Source: an uncultured Spirochaetaceae bacterium (GTDB lineage Bacteria; Spirochaetota; Spirochaetia; Sphaerochaetales; Sphaerochaetaceae). From it: a DNA stretch of 64,000 nucleotides. Where the stretch lies: contig CALXOL010000003.1 of NCBI GenBank assembly GCA_944390015.1, forward strand, positions 1 through 64,000. Reading direction: 5' to 3'. Shown in pieces: positions 39,359 through 43,682 of the stretch. Below the pieces are notes generated by a model that saw nothing but the letters and a program-made list of their open reading frames with translations, had not been told where the DNA came from and made no database searches. The stretch's first letter is position 1. Every line of letters starts with the position of its first letter. The position numbers and the translations under genes were made by a program.

Positions 39359-41959
39359 CTACCTGGAAATTGTTAAACTTCCAAAGTTTTCTATTATCAC
39401 ATACTCTAAATTCCAGTAATCCTTAAGTGTCTCGCTATCTCCTGGATCAAGGCTTCTACTTGAATAGCCGTATCCATTATCGTGTCCAGCCATAATTCTT
39501 ATGAAGGAATTATCTTTTACTGAATCCGATGAAAGAGTCAGCCCCATCAGTTTCTCAATATCATCAGATGTAAAGATTACCGGCTCATAGTCTTTAGATG
39601 CTTTAACTACAACTGGAAGCGAAATATCTGAGAAATCGATGAATGTGATTAATTCACGCTCTTCATCCCTAATTTCTCTTAAAGTTAGATTGACATCTCC
39701 ACTGCCAACTAGCTCAAGCAGTACAGGACCATTAATCTTACCTACATACAGCAGGGAATTCTCCTTATTAATGGAGAAGAAATATGGCACGTGCATTCCA
39801 TTTGATGCATATGTCACATCGCCATCAATACTGTAGCTGAAAGAAGAGCCATCCATTTCAAGCACATACTCAGTCTCTTTTTTTCCTTCAATTCTTAGCA
39901 TGCTGCTATCTTTAATGCCCGCTAGCTTACCCTCTTCTACACATATTGGATATTTCACTTGAAGAGAGTATTTAAAATCAGGATCTCCGCCATTTACCTC
40001 GATTCTCAAAACCAAATAAATACTTTCAGAGTCTATATTTTCAAGTGACAGAGGCAAGACGTATTCATACTCTTCTCCACTTTTCGCATCGAGCAGATAT
40101 GTATTTGTTTTAATCGGGGTATCATCATTATCAATATTGACAAAATTCTCATATAGCACAGGATAATCACCTTCTATATCAGATATCTCGATTGGGATGC
40201 AGAGTAAATAGAATAATCCCTGCTCATTCTCATACCTTATTTTGATTTCATTTTTAGAAACTTCCATAGCGTTGGAAAGTGGCATTTTCAAAGCCTTGAA
40301 AGTACCAGAGCTCGAAGAAAAATCAAAATCAGAGAATTTAAATTCCCTACTCCCTTCATTTGCAATGAAACAATAGAAATGTGGAGAGACACGGTTCAGT
40401 CCTCTCAATCCCGTATCATTGTTATCAGGAAGATAGATGCCATAGAGAGTTCCCATCTCAAGATTTTCAAGGATTACCGAGTCTTTAAATTCAAGCGTTC
40501 TTCCTTCACTTGGTATCTCATCTTGCAAAGAAGCTGCGTCAATCTTATAGACATTTCCATCTTCGATATCAAAAGAACCATCATAGGAGAAATGAAGTAT
40601 TACCTTTCCGCTTGAACCATTAGGATTGCGCAGTACTCCATAGACAAGTTTTTCACTATCCGTAAAGACGGCTTCCCTCTTAGCAGAACGAACAGAATCA
40701 GCAGTGTATCCAAGCCCTCCATCGTGAGAAAGCCCAAAGCGGACATCAACATCGTTTGAAGAGAATTCAGCATATACCGATACGCCTTTCAAATCTCTTT
40801 CGTTTTCAGAACTAAAGATCATCGGGATGAAATAATCATCTTTTGTAAAGATAATTTCTACTTTCCCCTCTTTCGGATCTACTGATTTTATCAGAGACTT
40901 CTCCTCGGCTTTGATTTCTCTTAACTGAGCCGTCTCATCTGCAACATCAGACTGCTTAAATAACGGCAATACGATATTATCATCGACCTTTCCGATATAA
41001 AGCAGAGCATTACCTGTTGCACTGTCATAAGAGAGAGGGAAAATGTAAGGATAGCAATCGCCTCTGAGATCGCCCTCTGCATATTCAGCATCAACCATGC
41101 TACTTGAGAAATCATAACATGAAACTTTATCGGTTAGCTTCATATCAAGTACCAACTCCTTCCCCGGAGCTGCTTCTATCTCGTAAATCTGAGGAAAATC
41201 AACAGAGAAAGTTTCATTTTGATTAATCACATCAGGACTCTCTATGAATACCTGAAAACTTGTTTGCCCGTAGCTTCCATCCTTTTTCCTCCCAGATTTC
41301 ACTTGATTGAAAAAGCTTATTTCGTCTACATCGCTTAAGTCGAATATTCCCATGTATCTCCTGTTTCCAGAAAGAGTCGGACTTGTTGGATCAATTATTC
41401 CCGCATCGTGGGAATACACTCCGCCTCCACTTCTATTTTTCTGATATGTTGTCAACGATACACGGGATTTATCATCCAAATTCAAATCATCTAAATTGAT
41501 TCTATAATACTCTTCGTAAATCTTCTCATCACCAATCATATATAAAGGTTCAGCTGCACTATCAATAGTTAGATCTGAGGTCTCGCCCACATCCTGGGAA
41601 TACTTAATCAGATTAATCTTTCCATCAGTCTGAATTCCTACCTCATCAGCATAGAAAGATACGGTTGACGATTGCGCAGGAAGAAGATAAGTACCGCCAC
41701 GAGTTGAGATGAAACGAGAATTATTATTTCTACTAAAACTCCTGCTACTACCAAGAGAGGAAGGAAATATTCCATAGAGAGCGCCACTTTCAAGATTGGA
41801 TAGGTTAATCTGTGTATCTTTTGAGACCTCATAACTTGAAGAAATACTCTCAGAAACATTATCGATATTATGTCTATCTTGAATAATTTTATTATTATCA
41901 GAGCAAGAGAACAAACAAACTAACAACAGACAGCTTAAAACGATAATGATTTTCCTCAT
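39359..41959 (-). CDS. Large lipoprotein made of two homologous halves
   Basis: The start MRKIIIVLSCLLLVCLFSC is a lipoprotein signal with Cys at residue 19 (ATG 41959; an ATG 15 nt earlier is less likely). The mature 848 residues consist of two related modules, about 52-475 and 493-866. Matching landmarks are LESGALYGIF against LEMGTLYGIY, NALLYIGKV against NSLLYVGKI, LREIKAEEKSLI against LREIRDEERELI, and HDGGLGYTADSV against HDNGYGYSSRSL. The modules are beta-rich and Ser/Asp-rich, typical of surface-exposed proteins. No catalytic motif or known family was recognised. It is likely an adhesin-like or surface-layer lipoprotein; that is inference. Confidence 0.7.
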   Translation of the reverse strand: MRKIIIVLSCLLLVCLFSCSDNNKIIQDRHNIDNVSESISSSYEVSKDTQINLSNLESGALYGIFPSSLGSSRSFSRNNNSRFISTRGGTYLLPAQSSTVSFYADEVGIQTDGKINLIKYSQDVGETSDLTIDSAAEPLYMIGDEKIYEEYYRINLDDLNLDDKSRVSLTTYQKNRSGGGVYSHDAGIIDPTSPTLSGNRRYMGIFDLSDVDEISFFNQVKSGRKKDGSYGQTSFQVFIESPDVINQNETFSVDFPQIYEIEAAPGKELVLDMKLTDKVSCYDFSSSMVDAEYAEGDLRGDCYPYIFPLSYDSATGNALLYIGKVDDNIVLPLFKQSDVADETAQLREIKAEEKSLIKSVDPKEGKVEIIFTKDDYFIPMIFSSENERDLKGVSVYAEFSSNDVDVRFGLSHDGGLGYTADSVRSAKREAVFTDSEKLVYGVLRNPNGSSGKVILHFSYDGSFDIEDGNVYKIDAASLQDEIPSEGRTLEFKDSVILENLEMGTLYGIYLPDNNDTGLRGLNRVSPHFYCFIANEGSREFKFSDFDFSSSSGTFKALKMPLSNAMEVSKNEIKIRYENEQGLFYLLCIPIEISDIEGDYPVLYENFVNIDNDDTPIKTNTYLLDAKSGEEYEYVLPLSLENIDSESIYLVLRIEVNGGDPDFKYSLQVKYPICVEEGKLAGIKDSSMLRIEGKKETEYVLEMDGSSFSYSIDGDVTYASNGMHVPYFFSINKENSLLYVGKINGPVLLELVGSGDVNLTLREIRDEERELITFIDFSDISLPVVVKASKDYEPVIFTSDDIEKLMGLTLSSDSVKDNSFIRIMAGHDNGYGYSSRSLDPGDSETLKDYWNLEYVIIENFGSLTISR

Positions 41960-42019
41960 AATCCAACTCTCCATTAAAATATATAATATTAGGAAAATGA
42001 ATTATTGAAAATAAAAAAA

Positions 42020-42044: not shown

Positions 42045-42117
42045 TAGCAAGAGAGGGACTCGGACCCCCGACCGACCGGATATGAGCCGGTTGCTCTACC
42101 AACTGAGCTATCTTGCC
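42045..42117 (-). tRNA. tRNA-Met (anticodon CAT)
   Basis: All four arms fold. The acceptor stem is GGCAAGA/TCTTGCT (1-72 is G-U), the D arm is GCTC-AGTTGGTA-GAGC, the anticodon stem is ACCGG/CCGGT around CTCATAT, and the T stem is GGGGG/CCCTC. The 3' CCA is not encoded. The paired G1-U72 argues against initiator tRNA, so it is elongator Met or, if the C34 is lysidinylated, Ile2. The T loop reads TCCGAGT, with C where U55 is nearly invariant. Confidence 0.9.
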
Positions 42118-42233
42118 ATCTGCTTTATTCACAAGCTTGGTTATTATGCCTAATATTTAAGACTTTGTAAATACTGTTTAAAAAGTTTTTTTAATATTGA
42201 GAATCGGTGTATACTTAAACAATGAGGTTTATT

Positions 42234-43609
42234 ATGAAACGAAGATTTTTATTCATGTTTTTAATTATCGCATCTATTTTTCTTTTCACATCTTGTCCTC
42301 AGGATATCGAATCACTTCCAGATGAAGAAGTTGATGGCGATGAAACCATCTCATTCTATCTTCCTACTTTTGCAACTGCAGAAGTTAGCGGGGGGGGGTA
42401 GCTAGAGGACTTATGGACATGGGAGTTTTCACAGGAGAGAACATGCTCGCAGGCTGTTCGATCATGAGTTATATACCGGTCATTCAGGCTCTAGAAAGCG
42501 CAGAGATGACGGTTTCTGACTTAAGAGAAACTATCTTTACCAGGTATGTAAACTTTACTGCCTATGGTTTCGACTGCAGTCTGTACAAGGATTCAATAAA
42601 AATAACTAAAGACTTTCTATATCTGAGATTTTACGTACAAAATGATGTGAGCATAGTGGGAGTTGTGGACTACGCTTTAGACATACGAAACAAAAGATTC
42701 TCATTCAGGGAAATAATGACTCTCACATTAGATTTTCCTGATTTTGGTTATCAGAATACGTCACTTCTTGTAATTGAATATAACGATATCCCTGTAAACT
42801 GGGATGGAAGTTTCACCACAGCCGAATTCCTTGACGATGGAAGCTTGAAGAAAAATGTAATTACAGACCTTCTATCGGTAGGAAATAATCAAAACCATGA
42901 TGTTTTCCTACAACGGTATTATGCTGTTGCAAAATCCGATAACGACATTATTTCAATATTCCTTCGTCCTTATGACAAAGAGTCATATGCCGTTAATATC
43001 GGAGATAATGCAAGAAAAGTACTAATAGAGGCAATTGGAGATAACTTAAAAGTTGATAACGATGACGAAGCATCTAAATTCTCGCATATAATCTGTCAAC
43101 ATCTTTTACCTGAATATTATGAAAATGGCAGGTCTCTTACCCATCATGATCCAAGAAACGGCTATGAAGACTATAAGGTATATGGTAGCTATGAAGAATA
43201 TCAAGCTGATAGTATATCAAAGTTAAAAAAGTTGAATGAAGAGCAAGAAGCTTTTAATAATGGTGAGGAATTCATTATTTTTAACTATAAAAATTTAGAG
43301 AATGCTACTCTCAGAACAGGTTCAAGCATTACAGATCCATATCAGAACTATCTAAGAGGAAATCTTACAAAAGAAGAACTCGAGGAAAAAGGATTTGCCA
43401 AATTCTATCCAGAATTATTCTCTTCTGAGGATTTCACTATTGAGAAGTTCATTGAAACACACCTTAGAGCATGTGGTATAGAAGATGAAAACTATATAAG
43501 TAATTTCATCTCGGCCTGGAAAGAGGCTTACTCTGGAATAGATTACAACGAACATTCGCAATATCCTAAATGGGAGAGTATTGTTACAAATATGCCTATT
43601 GTAAATTAG
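42234..43609 (+). pseudogene. Lipoprotein gene broken at a poly-G tract (candidate phase-variable, off state)
   Basis: ATG 42234 has a GAGG site and a TATACT box upstream. It encodes a lipoprotein signal ending FTSC (Cys21) and runs 55 residues to a TAG at the end of nine consecutive G (42390-42398). From 42399 a second frame stays open for more than 400 codons to the TAA at 43607-43609 (398 of them after the first ATG at 42413). Ten or seven G would join the two parts into one protein of about 458 residues (SGGG-VARGLMDMG). The downstream part is soluble and rich in Asp, Asn and Tyr, with no recognised family. The layout is that of a contingency gene switched by slipped-strand mispairing; a decayed gene or a sequencing error in the homopolymer are the alternatives. 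Confidence 0.75.
42390..42398. repeat. Homopolymeric tract of nine G
   Basis: This is the only long mononucleotide G run in the window. It lies at codons 53-55 of a lipoprotein gene and coincides exactly with the point where the reading frame breaks. Confidence 0.95.
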
Positions 43610-43638: not shown

Positions 43639-43682
43639 GAGGGGGCTTTTTAAAGCCTATGTTTTAAAATAGCCCCTTTAAA
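43639..43682 (-). terminator. Possible terminator of the PanE-like gene
   Basis: On the minus strand GGGGCT pairs with AGCCCC across a loop of about 25 nt that itself contains AGGCTTTAAAAAGCC. It is a plausible end for the yhcH-cyclase-panE unit. Confidence 0.4.

Follow-up and report, generated by a model that had tools for sequence, protein, structure and literature searches.

The window, as we call the 64-kb stretch of DNA analyzed here, contains a lipoprotein gene that is divided by a run of nine Gs, and we consider it very probable that this run acts as a translational on/off contingency switch for a surface lipoprotein and belongs to a large, lipoprotein-centered set of G-tract switches in this spirochete genus. 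Similar runs lie at control points of the gene's own family and of many lipoprotein genes, and the G9 is therefore most likely a random on/off switch. Like other translational homopolymer contingency loci, it combines an in-frame tract of at least about 8, longer than chance would provide, with two frames that belong to a single gene.

Organization of the divided gene

Read from the sequence, the G9 homopolymer (42390-42398; GGGGGGGGG) directly precedes a TAG codon (42399-42401). The part of the gene upstream of it encodes, again by reading, a signal peptide with a lipobox (MKRRFLFMFLIIASIFLFTSC; ending in LFTSC), and from this lipobox the product is predicted to be of the surface or envelope type; it may well be exposed at the cell surface. 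The open downstream frame begins at about 42389, and its first internal ATG, at 42413, would give a product of 398 amino acids. A first-pass annotation, made from the letters alone, had described a lipoprotein signal and 55 codons closed by a stop right behind nine Gs, and this is what is seen at 42234-42401. The long second frame that it placed downstream, with more than 400 codons, has 406 open codons up to 43609; its figure of 458 residues for the fused product is correct, and the tract does separate leader from body exactly at the frame break. Its statement that the tract is unique holds for the window, where this is the sole G run of at least 6, but not for the genome, which has 14 other runs of at least 9. 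In the 64-kb window, there are no other G runs longer than 5 and no C runs longer than 6.

The features of the locus and its surroundings are collected in Table 1. The TATACT listed there is a weak candidate for a −10 element because the consensus scan did not report it. The divergently encoded 871-aa lipoprotein (39359-41974) appears to be built from two halves that are related to each other (LSNLESGALYGIF and LENLEMGTLYGIY).

Table 1. Features of the switch locus and its neighbors, and other genes of the source genome whose frame is broken at a tract
Feature	Position	Strand	Basis
5′ part of lipoprotein gene	42234..42398	+	ATG 42234, 55 codons, ends at TAG 42399-42401
G9 homopolymer at frame break, probable switch	42390..42398	+	Sequence, run counts, genome-wide excess
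3′ part, same gene, other frame	42389..43609	+	406 open codons, stop 43607-43609
TATACT, candidate −10 of the gene's own promoter, no G tract	42210..42215	+	Read from sequence
GAGG, candidate ribosome-binding site, 6 nt upstream of ATG 42234	42224..42227	+	Read from sequence
Weak terminator-like hairpin 3′ of the gene	43643..43658	+	Consensus scan only
tRNA gene upstream, neighbor outside the switch	42045..42117	−	Rfam RF00005, 65 bits
871-aa lipoprotein gene, divergent neighbor, without tract	39359..41974	−	Open frames
Wzi-like beta-barrel, frame broken at tract	C2:53756		Wzi match E 1.5e-4, below Pfam cutoff
Lipoprotein with InlB-type repeat, broken within signal peptide	C10:76832		
Acyltransferase-3, frame broken at tract	C5:52427		N-terminal domain part visible in other frame

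Homology and predicted fold

Among the 48 genomes of the genus, 10 others carry homologs of the window gene. The leader and the body were searched as separate halves. Against the intact gene of genome G002, the leader aligns to the N terminus with 29% identity (E 0.002) and the body with 39% identity over 384 columns (E 4e-82); because both halves align to this one intact gene, leader and body constitute one gene. No Pfam or NCBIfam profile matched the family above its cutoff. The AlphaFold model of the body (pTM 0.77, mean pLDDT 71.3) shows a core of beta-sheet (residues 47-194) and is helical in its C-terminal part. Foldseek returned no match for this model at E 0.001 or better, and the best VIA score was a Z of 7.5 to TamA, with OspA entries at a Z of 5.0 and below, which is the level of common arrangements. 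Hence, we claim no function from the fold.

Tracts at several control points of one family

Tract lengths were also examined in related genomes, and independent G/C tracts were found in members of this gene family, at sites where a switch could work. The intact gene of G002 has a G9 upstream, directly before TATAAT. Of two paralogs in G007, one has a G9 between TTGACA and TATCTT with a spacer of 18 nt, and the other has a G6 between TTGACT and TATCCT with a spacer of 14 nt. In the G063 homolog, the promoter has a C10 that is flanked by TTGACT and an AT-rich −10 region. In G068, a G8 lies right behind the lipobox cysteine, and the frame is broken there as well, while in the G017 homolog, a G9 occupies the codon position that it has in the window gene. 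Thus, promoter tracts are found in three genes of the family, plus the one with G6; one gene has its tract after the lipobox, and one has it at the codon seen in the window gene. We take this to mean that the family has acquired G/C tracts at three control points, which neither random decay nor assembly error would produce. Not every member of the family would switch, since several homologs (in G064, G065, G015, G013, and G010) have no tract. In G017, the leader is missing, and the copy directly follows the end of a livF-like gene; given the missing leader, this homolog may no longer be functional or may reflect a misassembly. The stop codon of the livF-like gene and a hairpin directly precede the G017 tract (L023:1410-1520), an arrangement that raises the question of recombination at the tract or misassembly.

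Excess of long tracts in the source genome

The source genome is a 2.19-Mb assembly in 34 contigs. By exact length, its G/C runs number 6 at length 7, 2 at length 8, 9 at length 9, and 6 at length 10, with none longer, against about 30, 6, 1, and 0.2, respectively, expected by extrapolation from short runs. The distribution is therefore bimodal, with the middle lengths depleted and lengths 9 and 10 in excess. This is how it should look if particular sites preserve long tracts. For runs of at least 9, the 15 observed compare with about 1.3 under the geometric extrapolation from short runs (P about 1e-11) and with 3.6 under a first-order Markov model (P about 6e-6).

We inspected the surroundings of all 15 of these runs. 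The frame is broken at the tract in four, the window gene included (Table 1). Seven tracts lie in frame within genes for an exported 741-aa protein, two acyltransferase-3 proteins, a sugar transferase, a PlsC-type acyltransferase, a glycosyltransferase, and an IS605-type TnpB. Another two are just upstream of lipoproteins (one with BspA-type leucine-rich repeats and an LpoB), one is upstream of that sugar transferase, and the last is at the end of a possibly phage-derived gene with no Pfam match. Judging from these 15 contexts, the genes that bear tracts mostly have surface or envelope functions. The in-frame G9 of the IS605-type TnpB gene (L015:2924-4126) is located near the N terminus of the protein.

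A promoter cassette across the genus

The pattern TTGAC-N5..13-G7+-TA occurs 217 times in the 48 genomes of the genus, compared to once for a reversed control. As this pattern limits spacers to 19, a wider one was used for the spacer range; it gives spacers of 14-23 nt with a peak at 18-19 and G counts of 6-12 with a peak at 9. This wider pattern, TTGACA-N6..22-G6+-TAnnnT, is present in 34 of the 48 genomes, with no match for its reversed control. When one locus is taken per genome, the sixth base of the −10 element, which the pattern leaves free, is T at 28 of 30 loci. A lipoprotein signal was recognized in 25 of the 27 readable downstream genes by a simple motif test, a few of whose calls are doubtful. 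In three sampled genomes, such promoters contain 18 of 40 tracts of at least 9. The motif is rare outside the genus, recurring in a few genera of the class (e.g., g64 and g11). The promoter-spacer architecture of the tp0126 and porA type is found in homologs of the window gene as well as in other lipoproteins of the genus. In the window's own genome, there is no copy of the strict promoter motif and only two related upstream tracts are present; switching there would therefore operate mainly in coding regions.

Where promoters with identical flanks occur within a single genome, tract length is unequal in 29 of 48 pairs, which indicates that it evolves faster than the neighboring bases. In G064 and G004, the copies are near-identical from the −35 element through the signal peptide, while the mature proteins differ. 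A cassette of TTGACA, G8-12, TAnnnT, and a signal peptide near-identical within each genome is likewise seen before different lipoproteins at loci L049-L108 and L149-L166. Contigs of G004 and G064 (L154, L155, L157, L158, L164, and L165) end about 30-140 bases from the cassette, which suggests that the repeated cassette disrupts assembly and that its copy count is too low. In G061, a repeat is seen at three contig ends (L113, L118, and L129), where identical bases (gtctaccttcagggggttagttcaa) immediately precede a G9 tract. In other families of the class, five genomes (G043, G054, G115, G126, and G143) have hundreds of G9 matches, overlaps counted, far above the rest.

Proposed mechanism and alternative explanations

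We propose that slipped-strand mispairing during replication would insert Gs into the tract or delete them from it. In one of the three resulting phases, leader and body would be translated jointly and the lipoprotein made; in the two others, translation would stop early past the tract, leaving only a short leader peptide. The assembled G9 would then represent the OFF state, and slippage at the locus would be reversible. Most tracts of the genus, by comparison, would act on transcription through altered −35/−10 spacing. The benefit may be variation of an antigen or receptor in the face of immunity, phages, or competitors. This agrees with the phase-variable lipoprotein suggested by the first-pass annotation, which gains support from the unity of leader and body, from the relatives' own tracts, and from the tract set of the genome and genus.

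A miscount in sequencing or assembly, such that the true tract has another length and the gene is intact and always on, is unlikely in our view. The assembly is MAG-like, homopolymers are the usual site of indel errors, and one miscounted base is enough for the observed picture. Nevertheless, of the 33 homopolymer runs of at least 7 in the window, the G9 is the sole one at a frame break; the A or T runs of 7-9 (n = 32) are intergenic, at gene edges, or within intact frames, so errors are not general. Even were the tract miscounted, its placement, the parallel tracts of the homologs, and the genome-wide set would argue for a switch.

Less probable still is a decaying pseudogene, in which a slip in an incidental G run would have killed the gene for good. 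The missing leader of the G017 copy, directly behind the livF-like gene, could be cited for this, as could the G015 copy, which is broken without a tract. In the window gene, by contrast, 406 codons have stayed open at 39% identity to a distant homolog, and no second lesion or other inactivating change was found in the downstream frame besides the break at the tract. The position of the tract at that break and the tracts of homologs at other control points are also unlike decay.

Long homopolymers can make a polymerase slip, and transcriptional or ribosomal slippage on the tract might yield a constant partial supply of full-length protein, making it a level setter rather than a heritable switch; this seems to us very improbable, as it leaves unexplained both the promoter tracts, for which the code is irrelevant, and the length differences among copies. 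The least probable account makes the G9 a promoter spacer for the downstream ORF, like most tracts of the genus: the window G9 is followed by TAGCTA, in keeping with the genus pattern of a G tract and then TA, but the closest hexamer (TTGCAA, 42370-42375) lies at a distance of 23 nt, whereas TTGACA in the genus is mostly 18-19 nt from TAnnnT, the sixth base of TAGCTA is A and not T, the ORF from 42413 has no signal peptide, and the leader ahead of the tract shows homology to an intact gene. An internal promoter at this tract was rejected on spacing and leader homology, the tract being within the coding region.

Scope and implications

Records from the same genus (uncultured Spirochaetales/Spirochaetaceae MAGs, including RUG14846, whose RUG prefix we take to stand for rumen) suggest an animal gut or rumen habitat. 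In the literature searched, mainly openly accessible papers, we found no comparable system described for spirochetes of the gut or rumen; the mechanism is of a known kind, while the lineage and extent look undescribed in these papers. Beyond the window locus, we lean toward a broader reading, in which an uncultured gut spirochete genus varies its lipoprotein coat cell by cell through a cassette that is used repeatedly (TTGACA, short spacer, G8-G12, TAnnnT, ribosome-binding site, and a signal peptide, near-identical within a genome, before different mature lipoproteins) and also by tracts inside coding regions.

If this is correct, with many genomes each carrying about 5-15 independent promoter switches, populations would be large mosaics of surface types. 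The gain of tracts by a single family at differing control points would then document, in nature, that switching has been selected for repeatedly. Homopolymer phase variation has mainly been described in pathogens; here, it would operate on a large scale in uncultured spirochetes whose named relatives include rumen MAGs. Surface mosaics may hence be routine in gut commensals facing phage, immune, or competitor pressure, and many apparent pseudogenes of such MAGs may be switched-off genes. The proposal predicts mixed tract lengths at every listed site in existing metagenome reads.

Comparison with known phase-variable systems

The closest parallel by lineage is Treponema pallidum, in which the tpr genes and tp0126 are described, in the portions of the sources consulted, as undergoing phase variation by poly-G tracts of about 7-11 at genes for the outer surface (PMC7864442 and work cited there); G-tract counts of cultivable treponemes are tabulated in PMC8049484. 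The two systems share a spirochete host, G tracts of about 7-11, and outer-surface genes. The tp0126 tract lies between −35 and −10, with 17-nt spacing being optimal (PMC7864442), and the promoter-type tracts of the genus studied here are likewise placed. The comparison with T. pallidum made in the first-pass annotation is thus a fair one for the kind of system, but it does not extend to the site, since the T. pallidum tracts are described in promoters, before putative porins or other outer-membrane proteins (PMC7864442), whereas that of the window is intragenic and in a lipoprotein without a Pfam match.

With respect to the site, the window gene instead resembles those of Neisseria, Campylobacter, and Helicobacter, for which the consulted parts of the reports (PMC5084427, PMC5953494, and PMC2823697) describe intragenic homopolymers causing on/off translation of surface genes. 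As far as those parts go, the differences are that these bacteria belong to other phyla, that the window tract is 55 codons into the gene, and that relatives of the window gene switch the family by promoter tracts. For the promoter tracts themselves, the nearest model is porA of Neisseria meningitidis, where, in the portion of the source consulted, a poly-G between −35 and −10 sets transcription through their spacing, 17 nt being optimal (PMC7864442). The tracts of the genus are situated in the same manner and, by analogy, most likely work by spacing control of the porA type. Relative to what that portion describes for porA, the genus repeats the arrangement at more than 200 sites in 48 genomes, mostly before lipoproteins, whereas the window gene, without it, carries its tract within the reading frame.
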